Source of the DNA: Alistipes sp.
GTDB taxonomy: Bacteria; Bacteroidota; Bacteroidia; Bacteroidales; Rikenellaceae
NCBI GenBank assembly: GCA_017437045.1
Contig: JAFSBY010000040.1
Location: 124,001 to 188,000, forward strand
Direction of reading: 5' to 3'
Length of the DNA stretch: 64,000 nucleotides
Below, in pieces: positions 48,966-58,021 of the stretch. Each line of letters begins with the position of its first letter. Position 1 is the stretch's first letter. The position numbers and the translations under genes were made by a program. The notes below the pieces were generated by a model, which saw only the letters and a program-made list of their open reading frames with translations, searched no databases and was not told where the DNA came from.

Positions 48966-49331
48966 CTATCGTGACTGACCGATATAGAGCTCCTTCAGAT
49001 TCTTCAGCGCATCCTTCGAGATATCGAGTGTGAAGGCAAATTGCTCGCCATCGCTCAAGATCAGCTTTTGTCGCTGCACCTGGATCTGGTAGAGGTACGC
49101 CAGATTCACGATATACTTCTTGCCCACGCGGGCAAAGATCGAGGCCTGATCCTTCAGACGCTCGCTGAGCACCTGCTGCATGTGGGTCAGATTCATGCAA
49201 ATGACCCCTTTGAGTTGGTTTTTCAACACAATATTCGTGTAGTTGCCGTCCGACTCGAAATAGACAATCTTCGAGACATCGATACGCAGATACTCATCGC
49301 GCGAATTGAGGTGAAGGTAGATGTTTTTCAT
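48966..49331 (-). CDS. Stand-alone LytTR DNA-binding protein
   Basis: A 121-residue protein made of a LytTR domain only (about 10-110): YLRIDVSKIVYFESDGNYTNIVL, LKDQASIFARVGKKYIVNLAYL, ILSDGEQFAFTLDIS. LytTR domains bind direct repeats and usually sit behind a receiver; here no receiver is fused. I start at MKNIYLHLNS because the promoter box (49354-49361) lies inside the longer version. It lies between the acetyltransferase and the STK2 terminator, reading leftward like both. Confidence 0.85.
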   Translation of the reverse strand: MKNIYLHLNSRDEYLRIDVSKIVYFESDGNYTNIVLKNQLKGVICMNLTHMQQVLSERLKDQASIFARVGKKYIVNLAYLYQIQVQRQKLILSDGEQFAFTLDISKDALKNLKELYIGQSR

Positions 49332-49353
49332 CCGTTTTCGGGTTTTTGTTCGA

Positions 49354-49385
49354 TAAAGATACAACTTTTTTCCGAGAAACCCAAA
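49354..49385 (-). promoter_or_regulatory. Promoter of LytTR gene
   Basis: On the minus strand: TTTG (49385-49382), 20 bp, TATCTTTA (49361-49354, one mismatch). Confidence 0.55.
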
Positions 49386-49494
49386 GCACCGCCACTATCG
49401 AATAATTTCTTCGCTCGGCCGACCGGCCGACGGCTTGATTGCTTACCCCCCCCATCGGCACAAACGATCAGCGCGACCCGATGGCGTTCGGGGT

Positions 49495-49533
49495 GTGAGA
49501 AAAAATCAGCGCGACCCCGAAAGGTCGCGCTGA
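49495..49533 (-). terminator. Terminator of STK2 operon (GCGCGACC hairpin)
   Basis: An 11-bp stem (49506-49516 with 49523-49533), loop of 6, and a T run on the minus strand (49505 down to 49500). The stem is the same as after STK1. A partial copy of its left arm lies at about 49468-49480. Confidence 0.87.
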
Positions 49534-50495
49534 AAGTATAAAGCCCAAAGCGAAAAGCCTAAAGATTAAAAAGCGGAGACGGCGCGCACATAGTTGTAGT
49601 TGCTCTTATTGGCGTTGTAGGGGTAGCCATCGCCCATATTGACATACCACGCGCAGGAATAACCGGAGTATTGACGATTCTCCTCCGTCGAAGACCAATA
49701 GCTCTTGGTCTCTCCCTTGTTGTATAATCTCGTACCCCCTTTGGCCGCTAAAGTACGATTTACAGCGTCGTGTACGCTATTATTCAGCGTAAACAGTTCT
49801 AACTCCTCGATAGCGGGCAGATACCAACCCGAACCTAAATTGGCACACCAGGCAAAGGCAGGATAGTCCGCACGCCAATTCGGGCGTTGCTGGACGGCTT
49901 GCATATTGGCTGCGCCATCTGTTTCGCTGGAGGCTCCGATCAGCTGTTTTTGTTCGCTCGTATTAGATGACCATTCCAATTCTCCACTCGATTGGGTCAT
50001 GCTGACAATCTTGCCATGTCGGCCCGAGGCATCCACATAGAAAACCACGCCCTCTTTACCATTGACATTGTAGTAGTCACCTACTCGGTAAACACCGTCT
50101 CGTCCTTTTCCTGCATTGACCATTGGAGCAAAACGTTCCTCTGTTTCCTTTTCAGCTGCCTCACGCGCTTCGCGCTCACGACGCTCCTTTTCAGCCTTTT
50201 CAGCCGCTAATCGCTCTTGCTCGGCCTTCTCTTTGGCAGCTTTCTCCTCGGCTAACCGTTTCTCCTCGGCTGCTTTCTCTTTGGCCAACCGCTCCTTTTC
50301 GGCTTTTTCAGCCGCAGCATTGGCTTTCTCGGTGCTATCTTGAACAAAAGCGGCACGTTCGGCCTCCGCCAGAGCAATACTATCAGCAATGGCTTGTTGC
50401 TCGCGGAGGTGGGTCATGGCGGTGCGGCCGCCCCAGAAACCAGCGGCTACCAACAACAGAATCACTATCGTCCATAACCATTTTTTGGATCCCTT
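49506..50495 (-). repeat. Long homologous segment shared with STK1
   Basis: Inverted counterpart of 27385-28292, spanning transmembrane helix, coiled coil, sensor domain, 3' tail and terminator. The coiled-coil codons are expanded here relative to STK1. Confidence 0.75.
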
Positions 50496-51563
50496 TTTCT
50501 TGGGGGTAGGGGTGATGGGATGCTCCTTGACTGCAGCCGATTGAGGTGCCGATTGTGGCGCAGGTTGTGGTGTAGGTTGCGGTTTTGGTTGCGGTGCGGG
50601 CTTGGGTGTGGGTTTAGAAGTCGATTTCGGAGTCTCGTCCACGGCTGTAGCCTCGACGGCAGGCTCATCGAACGAGGTCTCCTGCTCGTTCGCAGAAGCG
50701 GCAGGGGTCTCCAGGGCCTGCAAAAAGTCCGCCACCGAGCTGTAGCGGTCGCGCTTGGCGGGCGACATGGCGCGGCGAATGGGGGCAATAAGGTTTGCGG
50801 GGATTGTGGCAGGGAAGGTCAGCTCCTCGTTGATCAGTTTCGGGGCTTCGGTCGGGGTCTCGCCCGAGAGCAGGTAGTAGAGCGTAGCTCCGAGGGCATA
50901 GATGTCGGTCTCGGGGCTGAAGAGGCTGACACCGCCCGTATTGTATTGCTCCATCGGGGCGTAGCCGTGCGAAATGCCCACCGGGGTCGAGGTGGTTTGG
51001 TGACCTCCCTCGTCATACTGCTTTGCCAATCCAAAGTCGATGAGTGTCGGCTGACCGGTTGCCTGCGAGAGCATGATGTTGGCCGGCTTCACATCGAGGT
51101 GGTTCATCTTCAGGCCGTGGATGTAGCTCAAGGCATCGCCCACGCACCGCACCAGGTGCAGGGCACGCGCTGAAGCCAAGGGCCCTTCACGACGGACAAG
51201 CGCCGAGAGCGACTCGCCCTCGATGTAGTCCATGACGTAGTAGGCCGTATCGTTCTCCTCGAAGATGTCGTGAATCTGCACAATGGCCGAGTGCGAGAGG
51301 CGCGAGATATTGCGGGCCTCCTTGATGAATTTGAGGCGGAATCGCTCGACCAGCTCGGCCGCACTGAGCGTGCCCAGTACGACGCGGCTGGTGGAACTAT
51401 CGCGGTTGCAGAAGCTTTGGGGGAAGAACTCCTTGATGGCCACCCGCTTGTCGAGCATCGTGTGGCAGGCCAGGTAGGTGATGCCGAAGCCACCTTGTCC
51501 CAAGACGCGCTCGATGCGGTATTTGCCACCCAGGAGGGTCTTTCCAATAGCAAGCGTACTCAT
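49566..51563 (-). CDS. Receptor-like Ser/Thr protein kinase STK2
   Basis: A 665-residue paralog of STK1 and last gene of the signalling operon. Kinase domain about 14-290 (GQGGFGITYLA, VAIKEFF, HLDVKPAN, LIDFGLAK, GYAPMEQY), again non-RD. A Pro/Lys linker (about 300-358) precedes a transmembrane helix (361-382), a longer Ala/Glu/Lys coiled coil (395-480) and the Lcl/FISUMP-like domain (487-665; LGSGWYLPAIEEL, YWSSTEENRQYSG, NYVRAVSAF). The kinase is presumably cytoplasmic and the C-terminal domain periplasmic, so it could act as a receptor. It starts 36 bp after the phosphatase stop. Confidence 0.92.
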   Translation of the reverse strand: MSTLAIGKTLLGGKYRIERVLGQGGFGITYLACHTMLDKRVAIKEFFPQSFCNRDSSTSRVVLGTLSAAELVERFRLKFIKEARNISRLSHSAIVQIHDIFEENDTAYYVMDYIEGESLSALVRREGPLASARALHLVRCVGDALSYIHGLKMNHLDVKPANIMLSQATGQPTLIDFGLAKQYDEGGHQTTSTPVGISHGYAPMEQYNTGGVSLFSPETDIYALGATLYYLLSGETPTEAPKLINEELTFPATIPANLIAPIRRAMSPAKRDRYSSVADFLQALETPAASANEQETSFDEPAVEATAVDETPKSTSKPTPKPAPQPKPQPTPQPAPQSAPQSAAVKEHPITPTPKKKGSKKWLWTIVILLLVAAGFWGGRTAMTHLREQQAIADSIALAEAERAAFVQDSTEKANAAAEKAEKERLAKEKAAEEKRLAEEKAAKEKAEQERLAAEKAEKERREREAREAAEKETEERFAPMVNAGKGRDGVYRVGDYYNVNGKEGVVFYVDASGRHGKIVSMTQSSGELEWSSNTSEQKQLIGASSETDGAANMQAVQQRPNWRADYPAFAWCANLGSGWYLPAIEELELFTLNNSVHDAVNRTLAAKGGTRLYNKGETKSYWSSTEENRQYSGYSCAWYVNMGDGYPYNANKSNYNYVRAVSAF

Positions 51564-51599
51564 GGTATAAGTAGGGTTAATCGGTTTTGCGGCAGGGGA

Positions 51600-53054
51600 T
51601 TATTCCTCCTCCTCTTTCTCATCATCTTCGTCGTCGGGCTCGTCGGCAGCGAGAGCAGCAGCGGCTGCCTCCTGCTTTTGCTTGAGCTTATTGGTCGTCT
51701 CCTTGGCTTGCTGCTCGGCCTGTTTTGCCGCTTGTTCAGCCTGTTGAGCCGCGTTTTGGGCCGCCTGCTCGGCGTTTTGCACAGCCTGCTCGGCGTTTTG
51801 GGCGGCCTGCTGAACAGCCTGCTCGGCATTTTGTACAGCCTGCTCGGCCTCCGACGCGGCCTTCGACGCAGCCTCCGAGGCGTTCGTGACGGCTTGCTCC
51901 ACCATTTGCTGGGCATCCGGCATGGCCGGCTTCTCCTCTTCGGTAGTGCCCTCCATGGCTTTCGGAGTGCCTTTGGCCGATTTGCTCTGTCCTCGCGATG
52001 GTGAGCCGGTGAACTCCTTCTTGATATCGGATTTACTCAAGCGGGTATAGAGGTAGAAACCGCCACCGCCACACAGCAGGGCCATGAGCAGAATCAAGAG
52101 CCAGATCATCGGATTGGACTGCGGCTTCGCGGGCTTCGTGGGCTGCTTCGTCGGGGCAGCCTTCGTCGGGGCAGCCTTCGGACGTACGGTCGGACGGGCG
52201 GCCGGACGGGGCGAGGGCGAACCATACATCACCGCGATGCGCTCCGGTTGGGGGGCGGACAGCTCGAGCACCTCGGGCGTGCCAATCACCTCGTCGATGC
52301 GCACCAAGACGGCCGTGTGGTTGTCGTGGTTTTGCTCCGTGACGCGGATCAGCATGTCGGCCTTCTGCGCCAGGTTGCCCGTCTTTTCGGAGAAGATATA
52401 TTGCAGATTCTCATCCTCCATCTGCTCCAAGATGCCATCCGAGCACATCAGGAAATAGTCGCCGGCAGCCAGGTCGCTCGTGTGGTAGATGTCGGCCTTC
52501 GGACGACGCTCCATGTTGGGCTGCATGGCTCGCGTGATGACATTCTTATGGGGCGAGGTCTTGGCCTCCTCGGGCGTAAGCTCCCCGACGCGCACCAGGT
52601 CATTGACCAACGAGTGGTCGGTGGTTTGGAACAGAATGCGGGTCTCGGCAGCCGTAGCACCCGAGCGGATATGATAGACGCGGCTGTCGCCGATATGGGC
52701 GATGGTGCAACCTCCGCTGTGGAACTTCAGGAAGGTCATCGTCGTGCCCATCTTCTTGGCTGCGCCATTATCTTTGCTGTCGAGGGCATCGAATGCCTCG
52801 GAGAGGGCTTCGCGGAACTGATCGTCCGTAAAGGGGCCCTCGGCATTGGGCACATGGGCCAAGATGGCGTGTCCCATCGCCTCGGCTACGGTGCTGCTGG
52901 CTATATCGCCCGCATCGTGGCCGCCCATGCCGTCGCAGAGGACAAAGAGACGGTCCTCGGCCGTGATCTTGCCATAGGGCGGGAAGATCGAATCCTCTTG
53001 GCGGGCACGCTGCCCCAGCTCCCAGATGTTACAGGCCTGTAATTTTAATTTCAT
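51600..53054 (-). CDS. PP2C-type Ser/Thr phosphatase with membrane anchor and coiled coil
   Basis: A 484-residue protein. PP2C domain (about 1-250): RQEDS, CDGMGGHDAGDIAS, GTTMTFL, AHIGDSRVYH, TTDHSLV, MCSDGI and DNHTAVLVRI supply the metal-binding Asp set. A Pro/Lys/Thr linker (275-310), transmembrane helix (about 313-336) and an Ala/Gln/Glu coiled coil of short repeats (EQAVQNA-type, about 380-450) follow, ending in an acidic tail (DEPDDEDDEKEEEE). It would reverse the phosphorylation by STK2. The anchor and coiled coil parallel those of the kinase and could let the two proteins pair outside the membrane. Confidence 0.92.
   Translation of the reverse strand: MKLKLQACNIWELGQRARQEDSIFPPYGKITAEDRLFVLCDGMGGHDAGDIASSTVAEAMGHAILAHVPNAEGPFTDDQFREALSEAFDALDSKDNGAAKKMGTTMTFLKFHSGGCTIAHIGDSRVYHIRSGATAAETRILFQTTDHSLVNDLVRVGELTPEEAKTSPHKNVITRAMQPNMERRPKADIYHTSDLAAGDYFLMCSDGILEQMEDENLQYIFSEKTGNLAQKADMLIRVTEQNHDNHTAVLVRIDEVIGTPEVLELSAPQPERIAVMYGSPSPRPAARPTVRPKAAPTKAAPTKQPTKPAKPQSNPMIWLLILLMALLCGGGGFYLYTRLSKSDIKKEFTGSPSRGQSKSAKGTPKAMEGTTEEEKPAMPDAQQMVEQAVTNASEAASKAASEAEQAVQNAEQAVQQAAQNAEQAVQNAEQAAQNAAQQAEQAAKQAEQQAKETTNKLKQKQEAAAAALAADEPDDEDDEKEEEE
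51690..51900 (-). repeat. Degenerate 21-bp coding repeats in PP2C gene
   Basis: Repeated codons for the unit EQAVQNA and variants (EQAAQNA, EQAAKQA) encode the coiled coil. Such tracts can change length by slippage. Confidence 0.65.
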
Positions 53055-53078
53055 GGTAGTTGCAATTTTTGTGAATGG

Positions 53079-53663
53079 TTACAAACCGGTATGTGGCTCG
53101 TCGTTAATCTCGAACCGTAGCACCGTATCGGGCAGACGCAGGAGGTCGCCCGAGCGCAAGATGACGCAATCGCCAAATTCGAGGCGCACGTCATTGACAA
53201 AGGTAGCATTGCAACGCTCCTTGTAGAGCGAGGCGTAGTGCACCAACCCCTTGCCCGGCACCTCTTTGGCCTCGATGACCAGATGCTCGCGGCTCAAGCG
53301 GTTGCTCGAGACCACCTGGACGGTTGCCGACGAACCCTCGGCTTTGCGTCCGACGACGTTGCGACCCATCTGCAACGGATAGCGCTCGGCTGCGGCCGTC
53401 AGGGTCAGAAGATAGCCCAATTGGGTATTCTTCGTGCCCCCATAGTGGGTCGGGCCCTCGCCGCCGTATTGGGTGCGCTCGCTGCCGCCATACTGCGTGC
53501 CCGGCTCGGCCTCCTCGCGCACGCGTTTGTAGGCCGTGAAGGGAGATTTCTCCTTGCAGACAGGGCAGGTGATCGACTTTTGCTCAAGCCCCGGGATGTT
53601 ACTGTTGAGCTTGAGCGTCACACCGCAATGGGGACACTTGATCTTTATGATTGATTCTTCCAT
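53079..53663 (-). CDS. Zinc-ribbon FHA domain protein
   Basis: A 194-residue soluble protein. N-terminal zinc ribbon (CPHC about 10-13, CPVC about 34-37), a linker with a TQYGG-like unit in four versions (TQYGG, TQYGG, THYGG, TQLGY; about 56-84) and a C-terminal FHA domain (about 97-185; MGRNVVGRKA, SNRLSREHLVIE, NATFVNDVRLEFGDCVILRSGDLLRL). FHA domains bind phosphothreonine. The Thr repeats before the FHA domain resemble the position of the phospho-switch in GarA/OdhI, so the protein may be a kinase substrate that folds back on itself. It lies between phosphatase and caspase genes. Confidence 0.9.
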   Translation of the reverse strand: MEESIIKIKCPHCGVTLKLNSNIPGLEQKSITCPVCKEKSPFTAYKRVREEAEPGTQYGGSERTQYGGEGPTHYGGTKNTQLGYLLTLTAAAERYPLQMGRNVVGRKAEGSSATVQVVSSNRLSREHLVIEAKEVPGKGLVHYASLYKERCNATFVNDVRLEFGDCVILRSGDLLRLPDTVLRFEINDEPHTGL

Positions 53664-53681
53664 GGTTTTCGTTTGTTAAAA

Positions 53682-54413
53682 TTACCACTGCATGACCGTC
53701 ATCGTGTGGGGGAAGTTGCCCCACATGACCGGATGTTGTTGGTCATCCGTGATCCGCACGACCTGGTTGTGTACATAGTCGAACAACTCGCGGGCCGTGA
53801 TGATGCGGTTCCGATTTTTGTCGGCACCACCGCGCAATCCTCGCTCCAGATAGGTCGTGAAGAAGCCATTCTTCATGCCGGGATTTTCGAGGGAGTACTC
53901 GTTGCTCCGCGATGAGAGAAAGAGCATCACATTGGCCCGTTTGGCAGCATTCACCTCGCTCTGTGACGAGCGTTGCTGTTGGCGAATCCTGCCCGAGAAG
54001 CAGGCATCGGCAAAGACCATCTTGTTGCGCGATTTGCTGCGCGCCATCGCTTTGCGAATCTCCTGGTAGCTCAATCCGCCATCATAGAGGGCAAAGGCCC
54101 CCGGATAGCCGTGGCCACTGAAGAAGAATACGACGATGTCATTGGGTCCTGCCACCGCATACAGGCGGTTCATCGCCGCACGCGTGGCGGCTACCGTCGC
54201 CCGCTGATTGAGCAGCTGGATCGACTCGACTCCGGTGTTGCGGTTGTAGAGCTGCGTGATGGTTTGTGCATCACGGGCCGGCAGTCTCAGGTCATTTTTT
54301 GTGCCCGGGTAATCGGCTATACCGACTGATACCAGGTACACCTTCGAGAAGGTGTACGCCGGTATCAGCAGGATAATGAGTAACAGAATCAGACGGCGAT
54401 TATACCATGTCAT
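53682..54413 (-). CDS. Exported caspase-like cysteine peptidase (C14)
   Basis: A 243-residue protein with an N-terminal signal or anchor (about 6-22, RRLILLLIILLIPAYTF) and a caspase p20-like domain: VYLVSVGIADYPG, catalytic His in VFFFSGHGYPG (about 96) and Cys in FADACFSGRIR (about 132), with the GLSYQEI segment between. The C-terminus (ITARELFDYV, HPVMWGNFP) fits the p10-like part. Both dyad residues are kept, so it is likely active, probably with Arg/Lys or other specificity unknown. It overlaps the acidic protein gene by 14 bp (start at MTWYNRR). Confidence 0.88.
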   Translation of the reverse strand: MTWYNRRLILLLIILLIPAYTFSKVYLVSVGIADYPGTKNDLRLPARDAQTITQLYNRNTGVESIQLLNQRATVAATRAAMNRLYAVAGPNDIVVFFFSGHGYPGAFALYDGGLSYQEIRKAMARSKSRNKMVFADACFSGRIRQQQRSSQSEVNAAKRANVMLFLSSRSNEYSLENPGMKNGFFTTYLERGLRGGADKNRNRIITARELFDYVHNQVVRITDDQQHPVMWGNFPHTMTVMQW

Positions 54414-55353
54414 AACCCGTGTCGGCATCGTTTACATAGTCGGGCTCACCCTCGTAGGAGGCATAGGTAGGATCCTCCACACCGGCTGCCGCAGCTACAT
54501 CGGCCACCGACAGGTTCTCCTCCGTGATATCCACGATCTCGTTGTCGCTGATCTCACCGTCGTGGTTGGCGTCGGCCACCAAGGCGTCGAACGTACCGTC
54601 GGTATCCACATCGATGAGCAGTACCTCCTCACCGTCCACCGTCACAGCACCTACCGTGCCCAGTTCCTCGTCGTGAACTACGCCCAGGATCTCCACCTCG
54701 GGATCAACTTCAGCTACGGGCTCCTCAATAGTGGGCTCCTCAACAACAGGCTCCTCAACGACAGGCTCCTCAACGACAGGCTCCTCTGCGGCAGGCTCCT
54801 CTGCGGCGGGCTCCTCTGCGGCAGGCTCCTCCGGCTGGGGCTCAACCACCTCACCATCGCCATCTACGGGCTGTACATCAGCCTCTGAGCGGTTATTCCA
54901 GTTGAAGTTGTCCTGATAAGCCTCACGCTCCTCGGCGGTCATATTGGCCCACTCGTCAGCCGTATAGGTGCCATAGACACCACCGCGCCACTCGAATGCA
55001 CCACCCGGGCCTACCTCTGCGCGTGCTGCGGCAAAGGCCTCGCCGAACGACATCTCGTCCGTTACGCCCGTAGCAACAGCCATTGCCTCCTGCGCCCACT
55101 CCGGAACTACCTCATCGACCATCTCCTCGGCCTCCTCGGTCAGCTCATCGATCATGGCCGTCGTACCAAACGAGGTCAAACCACCGATCAAAATACCGGC
55201 ACCTACGCCAAGGGCTACCTTACCGGCTACGCCACCCTTCTTGGGCTCCTCTTTTACCTCTTCGGCGGCCTGCTCCTGCAGCTGCTCGGGGGCCTCATTG
55301 ACTGCCTGGTTCTCCATGCGCTCGTTGTCGTAAATAGTCTCTTCAGTTTTCAT
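54400..55353 (-). CDS. Acidic membrane protein with EEP repeats and EF-hand-like loop
   Basis: A 317-residue protein, first gene of the operon. N-terminal 38 residues are acidic and end in KK; a Gly-rich transmembrane helix follows (about 41-66). Next come a conserved-looking block (about 105-150; FGEAFAAARAEVGPGGAFEWRGGVYGTY), a tandem five-residue repeat (EEPAA/EEPVV, about 170-215) and a C-terminal region with DANHDGEISDNE, a good EF-hand calcium loop, preceded by a second Asp-rich loop (DVDTDGTFD). Charge suggests a cytoplasmic N-terminus and periplasmic C-terminus. I know no function. The repeat tract may vary in length. Confidence 0.8.
   Translation of the reverse strand: MKTEETIYDNERMENQAVNEAPEQLQEQAAEEVKEEPKKGGVAGKVALGVGAGILIGGLTSFGTTAMIDELTEEAEEMVDEVVPEWAQEAMAVATGVTDEMSFGEAFAAARAEVGPGGAFEWRGGVYGTYTADEWANMTAEEREAYQDNFNWNNRSEADVQPVDGDGEVVEPQPEEPAAEEPAAEEPAAEEPVVEEPVVEEPVVEEPTIEEPVAEVDPEVEILGVVHDEELGTVGAVTVDGEEVLLIDVDTDGTFDALVADANHDGEISDNEIVDITEENLSVADVAAAAGVEDPTYASYEGEPDYVNDADTGYDMV
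54718..54840 (-). repeat. 15-bp tandem coding repeat (EEPxx)
   Basis: About eight units of a 15-bp sequence (GGCTCCTCnnnnnnn on the plus strand) encode EEPAA/EEPVV/EEPTI. The three EEPAA and three EEPVV units are nearly identical in DNA, a sign of recent expansion. Confidence 0.82.
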
Positions 55354-55405
55354 AGTTGTAAAATTTTAAGGTTATTAAATTGTGTTTATTTCCTGTTTCC
55401 GAAAG

Positions 55406-55413
55406 CAAAGATA
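55406..55413 (-). promoter_or_regulatory. -7 box of the kinase-phosphatase-caspase operon
   Basis: TATCTTTG on the minus strand, 52 bp before the ATG at 55353. The -33 element is weak, so an activator may be needed. Confidence 0.55.
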
Positions 55414-55550
55414 GGGGGTAAATCTCCGTTTTCCTAACATTTTTGGCCATTTTACACAAAACCCCCGGATTAATGTATGAAATTGCTCGTCAGCAAAGGA
55501 TCTTTGTTTTTCCCCATCCCTACGTACGCGTACGCGCGTGAGTGCATCCC

Positions 55551-55586
55551 TATAAAAACATAAGCGCGACCCGAAAAGGTCGCGCT
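55551..55586 (-). terminator. Terminator after FHA-like/zinc-ribbon gene (GCGCGACC hairpin)
   Basis: A 9-bp stem (55563-55571 with 55578-55586), loop of 6; T-rich run on the minus strand. It separates the upstream gene from the operon starting at 55413. Same stem core as after STK1 and STK2. Confidence 0.82.
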
Positions 55587-55683
55587 CAAGGGTGTTATGC
55601 AAGAAGGCCTCCGCTTAAAATGTGGCGACGATACTTCTCATTCTGAAGTAGTGCTCCAATCGGCAGGTGTGACGTGGCGCAGA

Positions 55684-56454
55684 CTATTTCTCGTTGTACT
55701 TACATTTGCAATAAGGGCAGGTGTCGGCTTGAGCCATCAGGCGGTAGGATTGATACCCCTTGAATCGACCACATTTGGGGTTCGGGCAGATGTACCGACG
55801 CTCGAAATCCTCCTTGATACGCTCGCGCTCGGCAATGCTATCATCCGATTTGGTCTTATAAAAACCATAGAGCATAACGGCCAAACTGAGCACGGTGAAG
55901 ATCACGGCATAGGGACGGATCGCATCGCCACCAAGCGTTGTCACCAAACCACCAATCAAGGTGGGGACCATCGTTAAACGAGCCAGCAAACCGGTGTTGC
56001 GCTGCCGATACTGAATCTCCAACTCCTTCTTGTGGTAGTCGTCCCACACCTTCTCTAACGGTTTGATCGAAAACTCCTGCGGCGGGGGAGGAAGCGTGCC
56101 GACCAACTTTTTGGAGGCCTCCAAAACCTGCGTCAGATTGAGCGGATATTTGTCGCGCGAGAGGGCAATGTGGCTCGTCGGGTTGATCACTTTGGATTGA
56201 ATCTCCACGCCATTGACCCAGGTGACATTCTGCGGTTTGATGTTGGTAATCTTCATCACACCGGCCCCATCAATCTCGATTTTGCAGTGGGCAATCTCCT
56301 CGGCCGGTTGGCAACGGCTCACGCTGCCGGGGACGGACTGCACCTCACCGAGGAAGCCCGACTTGTATTGTCCAGCCAACTTCATGGCGATCTGCAAACG
56401 CCCGTTTTTAGGATCTTTTCCGATCAGAATGGTTTGATTTTTTAAGGTCTCCAT
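55684..56454 (-). CDS. FHA-like membrane protein with C-terminal zinc ribbon
   Basis: A 256-residue protein. Residues 1-105 look like a divergent FHA fold (QTILIGKDPKNGRLQIA, IKPQNVTWVNGVEI, ISHIALS-like strand). A helical linker, two transmembrane helices (about 150-168 and 172-190) and a C-terminal zinc ribbon (CPNPKCGRF about 218, CPYCKCKYNEK about 246) follow. The FHA call is tentative because the Ser/His phospho-binding pair is not clear. Its place, transcription direction and shared terminator suggest it belongs with the kinase operon. Confidence 0.7.
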   Translation of the reverse strand: METLKNQTILIGKDPKNGRLQIAMKLAGQYKSGFLGEVQSVPGSVSRCQPAEEIAHCKIEIDGAGVMKITNIKPQNVTWVNGVEIQSKVINPTSHIALSRDKYPLNLTQVLEASKKLVGTLPPPPQEFSIKPLEKVWDDYHKKELEIQYRQRNTGLLARLTMVPTLIGGLVTTLGGDAIRPYAVIFTVLSLAVMLYGFYKTKSDDSIAERERIKEDFERRYICPNPKCGRFKGYQSYRLMAQADTCPYCKCKYNEK

Positions 56455-56556
56455 GCTTTTTTTAGAGGGTTAAAGGTCGCAAGAAACGACATCACACCCT
56501 CCTCCCGATTCCGTGGGCGGATCGTCGAAAGGAGAACTGCAACGCGATTCTTTATG

Positions 56557-56564
56557 CAAATATA
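56557..56564 (-). promoter_or_regulatory. -7 box before FHA-like gene
   Basis: TATATTTG on the minus strand, about 100 bp before the ATG at 56454. No clear -33 element. Confidence 0.4.
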
Positions 56565-56659
56565 ACAAGAAAATTGCTTCTTTCCACCTTTTTGTCGGCT
56601 AATTTGGTGCGGATGGATGCTTTTCGGTTTTTTCGGCACTCTTCGAGGGGCGGCAGGCG

Positions 56660-56690
56660 TTGGAAATCTCGGATCGAAACACTACCTTTG
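56660..56690 (+). promoter_or_regulatory. Promoter of radical SAM gene
   Basis: TTG at 56660-56662, 20 bp, TACCTTTG at 56683-56690; ATG at 56721. Confidence 0.65.
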
Positions 56691-56720
56691 GGGCAGAAAA
56701 ACCGCTAAAAAAGAGAATCC

Positions 56721-57494
56721 ATGACAGCCCTGTTTGAAGAGGTGATTTTTGGTCCCGTGCGCTCGCGCCGTTTGGGCGTTTCGTTGGGGGTGAATCTGCT
56801 CCCGATTCACGCCAAGCTCTGTTCGTTCGACTGCATCTACTGCGAGTGCGGCTGGAATGCCGAGCGGCGCGGTCAGATGCGTTTCAACAGCCGCGAAGAG
56901 GTCCGCGAAGCGTTGGCTGCCAAGCTGATGCAGATGCAGGCCGAAGGCGTGTTGCCCGACGTGATCACCTTTGCCGGCAATGGTGAGCCGACGCTCCATC
57001 CCGATTTTGAGGCGGTGATCGACGATACGATCGCCTTGCGCGATCGCTTTGCCCCCTCGGCCAAGATCTCGGTGTTGTCCAACGCCACACAACTCCACCG
57101 CGCCGAGGTGGTGCGTGCCCTGCGACGCGTCGATAACAACATCCTGAAACTCGATTCAGCCTTTGATGAGACGGTGCGACGGATCAATCGTCCGCAGCAG
57201 GCCTCCTACTCGGTTGCTCGCCTGGTCGAACAGCTCGGCTGCTTTGAGGGGGCTTTCATCCTTCAGACGATGTTTCTGCGGGGTTGTTGCGAGGGGGAGC
57301 CGATCGACAATACGACGCCTGCCGAGGTGGCAGCCTGGCTTGACATTGTTGCCAAACTGCACCCACGGCAGGTGATGGTCTATTCGATTGATCGGGATAC
57401 GCCATGCCAAACCTTAGAGCGCGTCTCGCGCGAAGAGTTGCAACAGATCGCCGCGCAGGTCGAGGCGCTCGGTGTTGCCTGCTCGGTCGCCTAA
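56721..57494 (+). CDS. Radical SAM protein of the wyosine-related group
   Basis: A 257-residue radical SAM protein with the cluster motif CSFDCIYCECGW (about 34-45) after FGPVRSRRLGVSLGVNLLP, then FAGNGEPTLHPDF and VLSNATQLHR. This is the COG0731-like group, distant relatives of TYW1; the bacterial reaction is not known. It converges with the lipocalin gene, overlapping it by 4 bp. Confidence 0.88.
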   Translation: MTALFEEVIFGPVRSRRLGVSLGVNLLPIHAKLCSFDCIYCECGWNAERRGQMRFNSREEVREALAAKLMQMQAEGVLPDVITFAGNGEPTLHPDFEAVIDDTIALRDRFAPSAKISVLSNATQLHRAEVVRALRRVDNNILKLDSAFDETVRRINRPQQASYSVARLVEQLGCFEGAFILQTMFLRGCCEGEPIDNTTPAEVAAWLDIVAKLHPRQVMVYSIDRDTPCQTLERVSREELQQIAAQVEALGVACSVA

Positions 57495-58021
57495 TGGGTT
57501 GGCATCGGGCGGTTCCAGATCAGTTTTGAGGTCGAATAACCCCGCTGTTGTGCCAATCGCAGGATGTAATTGAGTGTCTGCATGTCGAGGTGTGGCGTAC
57601 GCGACAGAATCCAAAGATAGTTGGGCGATTTACTGCCGATTAAGGCCCACTCGTAGTTCTCATCCAGCTCTAAAATGTTGTAATCGGAGTAGAAGAAGAG
57701 GAAAAACGACACCCGCAGCCGACCCGGTTGGTCGGTCAGCTTGGCCTTGCCACGAGCTACCTTCTCCTTGCCTGTACGGCGGTCGATGCCACGATTGACC
57801 ACCTCGATCTTCCCGTTGGGAAGCAACGTGTAATCAGTCTCGACCGACTCTAAATTCCGCTCAAAGGAGTGGTCATAGCGGGCAATCTCATACCAATGGC
57901 CCAAAAAACGGTTCAGATCGAGCGTCGGAACGGTCTGACGATCGAGCGTGGGGGCTGCCGATGCAGATAGTACACAGCTCACGAGCAGCACAACGGTCAA
58001 AGTAATCAGGATATATTTCAT
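57491..58021 (-). CDS. Lipocalin family protein (Blc-like)
   Basis: A 176-residue exported protein: signal peptide (about 1-22; VVLLVSCVLSASA, with a possible lipobox Cys16), then one lipocalin barrel. GxW motif in FLGHWYEIARYDHSFER, C-terminal SRTPHLDMQTLNYIL. Blc proteins bind lysophospholipids or fatty acids and aid membrane maintenance. Lipoprotein status is uncertain because the lipobox is not ideal. Confidence 0.9.
   Translation of the reverse strand: MKYILITLTVVLLVSCVLSASAAPTLDRQTVPTLDLNRFLGHWYEIARYDHSFERNLESVETDYTLLPNGKIEVVNRGIDRRTGKEKVARGKAKLTDQPGRLRVSFFLFFYSDYNILELDENYEWALIGSKSPNYLWILSRTPHLDMQTLNYILRLAQQRGYSTSKLIWNRPMPTH

Follow-up and report, generated by a model that had tools for sequence, protein, structure and literature searches.

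Gene sets that resemble the locus considered here include PpkA-PppA-Fha, which constitutes a threonine phosphorylation pathway of the type VI secretion system (T6SS) in Pseudomonas, and the TerY-P triad, which consists of a vWA protein, a PP2C phosphatase and a kinase. To our knowledge, the roles of bacterial caspases and of the Ser/Thr kinases of Bacteroidota are little settled. In the current study, a 64,000-nucleotide stretch of an Alistipes sp. genome (assembly GCA_017437045.1, contig JAFSBY010000040.1, positions 124,001 to 188,000; the whole stretch is referred to as the window) was analysed with regard to a leftward run of genes for a Ser/Thr kinase, a PP2C phosphatase, an FHA protein, a caspase-like protease and an acidic membrane protein. 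As in the Hanks-type kinase/PP2C/FHA class, kinase, PP2C and FHA domains are encoded together in this run, and no vWA match of the TerY-P kind was obtained among the nine proteins scanned (48966 to 58021).

Comparative analysis revealed that these genes belong to a conserved set with intact catalytic residues, in which a threonine motif is enriched in a compartment-specific manner. We give about an even chance to the proposal that the set acts as a self-contained trans-envelope phospho-threonine signalling module.

Results

Components of the module

The original prediction comprised five genes. These do form a tight unit, although the set proved to be incomplete: FHA2 and LytTR are conserved neighbours elsewhere, bringing it to seven genes. 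The components and their sequence elements are as follows (positions in the window; aa, amino acids).

55684 to 56454, minus strand: FHA2, 256 aa, with an N-terminal FHA-like domain, two hydrophobic segments and a C-terminal zinc ribbon
54400 to 55353, minus strand: ACID, a single-pass acidic membrane protein of 317 aa, anchor of the linkage search and subject of an AlphaFold2 model
55327 to 55344, minus strand: ACID tail motif E-E-T-I-Y-D (aa 4-9), a predicted phospho-Thr FHA ligand
54904 to 55065, minus strand: ACID mini-domain SFxEAFxxARxExGxGGxFxWxGxxYxTxxxEEW (about aa 97-150)
54484 to 54702, minus strand: ACID C-terminal beta domain with D-x-D-x-D-G loops (about aa 218-290)
53682 to 54428, minus strand: CASP, a stand-alone, exported metacaspase-like C14 protease of 248 aa (start at 54428 or 54413)
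53079 to 53663, minus strand: FHA1, 194 aa, with a zinc ribbon, a Thr-rich linker and an FHA domain
53415 to 53501, minus strand: FHA1 linker repeats TQYGG/TQYGG/THYGG/TQLG (Thr56, 64, 72 and 80), predicted phosphosites
51600 to 53054, minus strand: PP2C-type phosphatase with a transmembrane segment and a coiled acidic C-terminus
49566 to 51563, minus strand: STK, a Ser/Thr kinase with a transmembrane segment and an extracytoplasmic Lcl_C domain
48966 to 49364, minus strand: LytTR, a single-domain DNA-binding protein of 132 aa and the seventh component

Pfam searches assigned STK to the protein kinases (1.2e-36) and, at its C-terminus, to Lcl_C (1.1e-10), a domain that the original prediction had left unnamed, while PP2C matched PP2C_2 (1.2e-12), FHA1 matched FHA (4.4e-6) and LytTR matched the LytTR domain (2.7e-11). 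The phosphatase also matched the NCBIfam Stp1/IreP-type model (1.8e-47) with 161.8 bits, under its cut-off of 230, and a membrane segment is present in 51 of the 54 relatives that are longer than 300 aa. A Pkinase match was obtained for all 77 aligned module kinases (alignment A5: 76 of the 89 listed locus kinases plus that of the window), and their C-terminal domains vary (FGE-sulfatase in 13, Lcl_C in 10, MORN in five and Sel1 in three). The core residues of the FHA domain are kept across the 58 aligned FHA1 proteins, on which the linker figures below also rest (G 57, R 57, S 57, R 58, H 52, N 53), and the Cys pairs of FHA2 are invariant in an alignment with five counterparts. At several loci up to three kinases with differing C-terminal domains lie in a row within one module (among others, L099:12936-17677 and L112:10485-14567), as if several sensors fed one relay.

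Conserved linkage and distribution

Linkage was anchored on the 60-aa ACID motif alone (alignment A1), which was scanned across a genome-contig collection of 84,980 species; 278 pattern matches yielded 174 relatives, of which 80 were kept (79 loci), so that the counts tilt toward the best matches. Open reading frames (ORFs) were called mechanically, by which the ACID ORF was lost in five loci and some partner genes were possibly missed. The linkage count was restricted to FHA hits of at least 25 bits and to LytTR ORFs shorter than 200 aa, and it includes both members of the apparently near-identical pairs L074/L077 (one metagenome-assembled genome, MAG) and L109/L116; alignment A6 covers 89 of the 151 unlabelled ORFs.

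At distances of up to 8 kb from the motif, FHA1 was present at 60 of the 79 loci, PP2C at 57, STK at 52, FHA2 at 49, caspase at 46 and LytTR at 39, and 345 of the 348 partner genes lie on the same strand as ACID. Where at least 5 kb of flank was available on both sides (49 loci), four or more of five partners were found at 35 loci and all five at 15. The order seen in the window, ACID-caspase-FHA1-PP2C, recurs at 25 of the 79 loci. The small LytTR ORF was detected by profile at one locus beyond the 8-kb limit (40 in total), those within it all being on the strand of ACID, and first neighbour clustering had yielded 30.

When only the caspase was used as query, matches at 1e-10 were obtained in 24 of 295 Bacteroidales genomes, that of the window among them. 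Of the six best genomes apart from the latter, five have matches to several module families nearby, all in the same orientation; in the remaining one (G139), the caspase and PP2C are grouped with counterparts of FHA1 and FHA2 and with a counterpart of the acidic protein that is devoid of the motif. It was this comparison of caspase neighbourhoods that first revealed the sixth gene, FHA2, and the 60-aa ACID motif. The original prediction, in which an exported caspase forms part of a transmembrane phospho-signalling module, is supported: it was to be refuted if the genes were not conserved together, whereas joint occurrence of the families on a single strand is seen across many Bacteroidota.

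The kept loci are labelled Prevotella, Bacteroides, Muribaculaceae, Alistipes, Tannerella, Odoribacter, Paludibacteraceae, Lentimicrobiaceae and Bernardetiaceae, and many derive from rumen or gut MAGs. A locus labelled Gammaproteobacteria (L087) contains ACID, FHA1, FHA2, PP2C and kinases and one labelled Clostridium (L117) the ACID gene only; these labels may reflect mis-binning or transfer. The motif is patchily distributed, being found in 14 of 393 Bacteroidales genomes and in six of 395 genomes across the phylum (one of the six weakly), the genome of the window being included in both counts, and in none of the four other genomes listed from the same family. Outside the Bacteroidales, FHA2-ACID-FHA1-PP2C-caspase-STK lie on one strand of a genome represented by a single 7-Mb contig; partial sets were present in three other genomes, a fourth had ACID, FHA2 and FHA1 only, and a fifth gave a weak motif match without any partner gene. 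A plasmid of Runella rosea HYN0085 carries FHA2-ACID-FHA1-PP2C-caspase, with no kinase annotated in the two stretches inspected; in this copy a VWA-domain gene lies just upstream of FHA2.

A compartment-specific threonine motif

The cytosolic tails of ACID proteins share the logo N-[ED]-[ED]-T-[IV]-[YF]-D-[EN]. The pattern [DENQ]-T-x-hydrophobic occurs 72 times in 58 of 75 tails, compared to a mean of 16.2 and a maximum of 29 in 500 shuffles. When segments were compared by compartment, Thr sites were enriched in ACID tails (71 vs 16.4 shuffled, 4.3x), in FHA1 linkers (35 vs 12.9, 2.7x, a value reached by none of the 500 shuffles) and in STK juxtamembrane segments (43 vs 22.6, 1.9x), while no enrichment was observed in the extracytoplasmic segments of STK (43 vs 63.5, 0.7x), PP2C (20 vs 19.6, 1.0x) or ACID (73 vs 108.7, 0.7x). 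Serine versions of the motif were not significantly enriched in any segment (0.5-1.2x), the highest value, 1.22 in the ACID tail, being reached by 123 of 500 shuffles. In the window, the FHA1 linker contains four T-x-[YL]-G repeats. Some FHA domains prefer pT-x-x-D. The compartment-specific motif is the pattern that would be expected from an intracellular phospho-Thr/FHA circuit, which is not to say that it proves phosphorylation, and Thr6 of ACID together with Thr56, 64, 72 and 80 of FHA1 are the predicted phosphosites.

ACID, an acidic membrane protein

ACID has no Pfam match above the curated cut-off and is composed of a cytosolic tail with the Thr motif, a glycine-rich transmembrane segment, the mini-domain, an acidic linker and the beta domain. 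Among 66 sequences (alignment A7: 65 of the 77 locus ACID ORFs plus that of the window), K+R amounts to 12.3% in the tails vs 2.0% past the membrane segment, a charge distribution that points to a cytosolic tail with the remainder extracytoplasmic. This outer part contains 23.9% D+E, and its K+R content compares with median values in the extracytoplasmic parts of STK and PP2C of 10% and 13%, respectively. Eight mini-domain residues are invariant in all 66 sequences (A106, A110, R111, G118, F120, Y127, T129 and E134), and in five ACID proteins Arg111 is the sole basic residue of the outer part.

An AlphaFold2 model based on the 66 sequences predicted the mini-domain (aa 91-150 in the model) as a helix-hairpin-helix with a predicted local distance difference test score (pLDDT) above 90 and residues 221-290 as beta strands with pLDDT of 90-97, the tail, membrane segment and acidic linker being unstructured and the overall predicted template modelling score (pTM) being 0.36. 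The protein had been described as an EF-hand protein, a label that is not supported: no Pfam EF-hand match was found, and the model places beta strands at the D-x-D-x-D-G stretch.

A 35-aa form of the mini-domain, FGEAFAAARxExGxGxTFxWxGKxYxT, was observed in otherwise unassigned proteins of predicted viral contigs (L152-L176), often close to the C-terminus; in L152, the protein in question has 142 aa and an N-terminal hydrophobic segment. At 13 loci (among others, L051:7386-8066 and L084:8874-9548) the module includes a further acidic protein that resembles ACID but does not contain the motif. It has a glycine-rich membrane segment and a D-x-D-x-D-G domain, and most of its copies are also nearly free of Arg and Lys.

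The caspase-like protease

CASP matches Pfam C14 (1.7e-18), and its catalytic dyad, His106 and Cys143, is invariant in 44 of 44 sequences (alignment A8: 43 of the 45 listed caspases plus that of the window). Of 47 relatives, 45 begin with a hydrophobic, signal-like stretch, and in the remaining two such a stretch follows a long N-terminal extension; CASP is probably exported to the periplasm. Its nearest solved relatives are GSU0716 and metacaspases, the latter of which strictly prefer Arg/Lys (PMC4357240). Of the S1 residues of TbMCA2 (Asp95, Ser156 and Asp211), S104 and D141 are candidate equivalents by their spacing from the dyad, and the invariant D53 may correspond to Asp95. CASP probably cuts after Arg or Lys.

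The near-absence of Arg and Lys from the outer part of ACID, together with the invariant Arg111, suggests ACID as a substrate or partner of the caspase. Median K+R of ACID was 1.75% where a caspase is present at the locus (n=45) vs 2.9% where it is not (n=15; Mann-Whitney p=0.0035), a difference that is suggestive only, the groups having been chosen post hoc and relatedness being uncorrected.

Locus layout and transcription signals

All five ORFs of the original prediction were recovered on the minus strand at exactly the positions given for them, and the ORF coordinates yield small gaps of 36, 24 and 18 bp. The reported 14-bp overlap between the caspase and acidic protein genes is reproduced from the internal ATG at 54413, the first ATG, at 54428, resulting in 29 bp. 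The -7 box and the terminator said to bound the unit were both located (Bacteroidetes -7 boxes follow the consensus TAnnTTTG), as was a further hairpin:

55406 to 55413, minus strand: -7 box TATCTTTG, from the sequence
49495 to 49533, minus strand: terminator hairpin GCGCGACC/GGTCGCGC followed by T's, after STK, from the sequence
55563 to 55586, minus strand: terminator-like hairpin in the interval between FHA2 and the five genes, with 9-nt arms (55563-55571 and 55578-55586) that are 100% complementary

Inspection of the sequence around the -7 box revealed no clear -33 box upstream of the five-gene unit. To judge by these sequence signals, the five-gene run resembles a single transcription unit, and the hairpin upstream of them agrees with a transcription unit separate from the gene at 55684-56454. 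A quick repeat search of 55354-55690 returned nothing convincing as LytTR binding sites.

Between FHA2 and ACID, BspA-like exported repeat proteins are encoded at 16 loci (e.g. L051:8099-9157) and a small exported protein at 12 loci. FGE-sulfatase and Sel1 proteins also recur within module loci.

Discussion

The mechanism that we infer comprises phosphorylation, FHA binding, transmission through ACID and protease control. At least one membrane kinase (STK), of a type with varied and probably sensory extracytoplasmic ends, would phosphorylate threonines of the ACID cytosolic tail (sites of the N-E-E-T-I-Y-D type) and, in addition, threonines of the FHA1 linker and those of the kinase near its own membrane segment. 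FHA1 and FHA2 would bind the phospho-threonines so that a complex is assembled at the membrane, and the membrane-bound PP2C would reset the phospho-state. This state would be relayed outward via the extracytoplasmic mini-domain and acidic beta domain of ACID, and inward to transcription via the small LytTR protein. The periplasmic metacaspase-like protease, encoded at most loci and optional, would represent the output, possibly acting on ACID or being held by it.

Several observations weigh against this proposal. The motif is missing from 17 of the 75 ACID tails and is not enriched in PP2C juxtamembrane segments (8 vs 13.9 shuffled, 0.6x), it is mildly enriched in the FHA domain of FHA1 (42 vs 27.2, 1.5x), and the shuffle tests ignore relatedness. 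The Pfam FHA match of FHA2 (0.005, 17.7 bits) lies below the cut-off of 20.7, and the copy in the window carries GK in place of the GR that is usual in FHA domains, which makes its binding of phosphopeptides less certain. LytTR is seen at only half of the loci and lies beyond the terminator in the window. Among the 49 well-flanked loci, 17 have no caspase within 8 kb; 16 of these 17 loci entered a search for a caspase elsewhere, which covered 15 genomes, of which eight gave a strong match, one a weak match and six none at 1e-10, a close match (E of 1e-50 or better) being lacking in seven of the 15. The exported caspase of the original prediction is supported but is not an obligatory part of the set; since it is dispensable, the core would be the phospho-relay with ACID, and the caspase a frequent output.

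This mechanism and the purposes considered below are not mutually exclusive. The purpose that fares best, although it is held tentatively and is about as probable as any alternative, is envelope-stress or surface-development signalling, in which the kinase ectodomains would sense the surface and proteolysis together with LytTR-dependent transcription would remodel the envelope without death. The varied extracytoplasmic ends of the kinases, the recurrence in the module of BspA-like (16 loci) and other exported proteins and of FGE-sulfatase and Sel1 proteins, the LytTR output and the housekeeping flanks are consistent with such a role; against it, the patchy distribution is unusual for a housekeeping stress pathway.

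The same patchiness, with the motif in 14 of 393 Bacteroidales genomes but in no other of the four same-family genomes listed, together with the plasmid copy in Runella rosea, favours a role in anti-phage defence or abortive infection, which we nevertheless consider unlikely. A phage cue at the envelope would here activate the kinases, the periplasmic protease would damage or kill the cell, and the ACID mini-domain would mimic or meet a phage protein. The main reason for which this possibility is retained is the sharing of the mini-domain with proteins of 25 predicted viral contigs, which form about 12 distinct groups and score 27-54 bits against the profile; kinases and caspases are also found in described conflict systems (PMC7159879, PMC8195603). 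Nine of the viral proteins, however, are without a PHROG of clear function, two match a tape-measure family weakly and ten have no Pfam match, and in an annotated phage collection the viral form gave no match, the ACID form matching one unannotated 5-kb faecal contig. PADLOC models were matched by the kinase (PD-T4-6, 1.1e-51, and other kinase models) and, weakly, by the caspase (one model, 1.7e-9), while FHA1, FHA2 and ACID had no match; the kinase matches are spread over so many kinase models that they carry little information. Nor are the flanks rich in defence genes: among 102 of the 144 listed flanking proteins, scanned in the absence of a matched background, the best-represented PADLOC families had two matches each, and by Pfam the flanking genes are mostly housekeeping. 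Residence in a defence island was accordingly rejected as an explanation, no enrichment being seen among these 102 proteins.

A more specific scheme appears improbable, in which cytosolic kinases and FHA readers would set the state of the ACID tail, ACID would serve as a membrane bait through its phage-shared mini-domain, and phage contact or a change in phosphorylation would lead the caspase to cut the nearly Arg/Lys-free outer part at Arg111 and so to cause death or closure of the envelope, LytTR priming transcription. Arg111 lies in a confidently predicted helix of the AlphaFold2 model, a further point against the mechanism proposed above, and this placement weakens the case for a simple cleavage site at that residue.

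It is very improbable that the module generally controls a T6SS in the manner of PpkA-PppA-Fha, even though it contains the same enzyme trio. In Runella rosea (NZ_CP030851.1, L178/L179), genes for TssK, TssN, TssF, TssD and a Clp-type ATPase share a 75.9-kb record with the module, and TssN is found in three of the four motif-bearing genomes outside the Bacteroidales. Set against this, TssN also occurs in five of 45 genomes without a known ACID motif, and it exceeded the cut-off in none of the 14 motif-bearing Bacteroidales genomes, that of the window included (two matches were sub-cut-off), which leaves T6SS control unsupported as a general role in this order. The observation that no secretion genes adjoin the locus is extended by the lack of TssN, the only T6SS gene sought, from the genome of the window (92.8% complete), yet T6SS genes do lie on the Runella plasmid that carries the module.

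Diversity-generating retroelement targets have lectin-like ends akin to Lcl_C, and the Lcl_C-type end of the kinase resembles them, but the notion that it marks such a target is hardly tenable, as the 92.8% complete genome of the window yielded no match to the reverse transcriptase family PF00078 while a control search was positive in three of 14 genomes.

This study describes a conserved, sequence-defined module in which a metacaspase-like protease located beyond the inner membrane appears to be controlled from inside by phospho-Thr, and introduces ACID as a new membrane-protein family with exact candidate phosphosites and a candidate protease partner. These candidates open the link between bacterial phospho-signalling and regulated proteolysis to direct tests, for which the cultured species Runella rosea is one possible host.

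In agreement with the initial impression that no described system has this exact set, no description of it came up in a paper search by title and abstract opening, the coverage of which largely excludes subscription papers and bioRxiv. The kinase, PP2C and FHA trio is common to the module and the PpkA-PppA-Fha pathway of the T6SS, from which the module differs by the presence of ACID, the caspase and LytTR, and by the lack of TssN in the window's genome. FHA1 resembles the FHA switches of the GarA/OdhI type, which have phospho-Thr sites in their own N-terminal segment as proposed for FHA1, but is set apart by its N-terminal zinc ribbon, its several Thr repeats and its linked membrane partner and protease. 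The kinase-kinase-phosphatase system KKP (PMC11341870) is likewise a kinase and phosphatase module with several kinases, although it is prophage-encoded in Pseudomonas, and FHA, caspase and ACID are unmentioned in the part of the source consulted. A parallel to ACID is found in the EACC1-caspase 'System 4' (Kaur et al. 2020, PMC7159879), which contains a single-pass membrane protein with a glycine-rich helix beside a caspase and for which membrane action was proposed; its caspase carries variable C-terminal effector domains and the system is described as prevalent in actinobacteria, whereas the present module has a stand-alone exported caspase beside kinase, PP2C, FHA and LytTR genes, and the match to the EACC1-caspase model (NCBIfam NF047832) reaches 82.7 bits against a cut-off of 140. 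Finally, CASP shares the His-Cys dyad and, putatively, basic-pocket residues with the bacterial metacaspases (orthocaspases) of family C14B, among which nearest solved relatives are found; it differs from them in being exported, in consisting of a single domain and in its association with a phospho-signalling operon.

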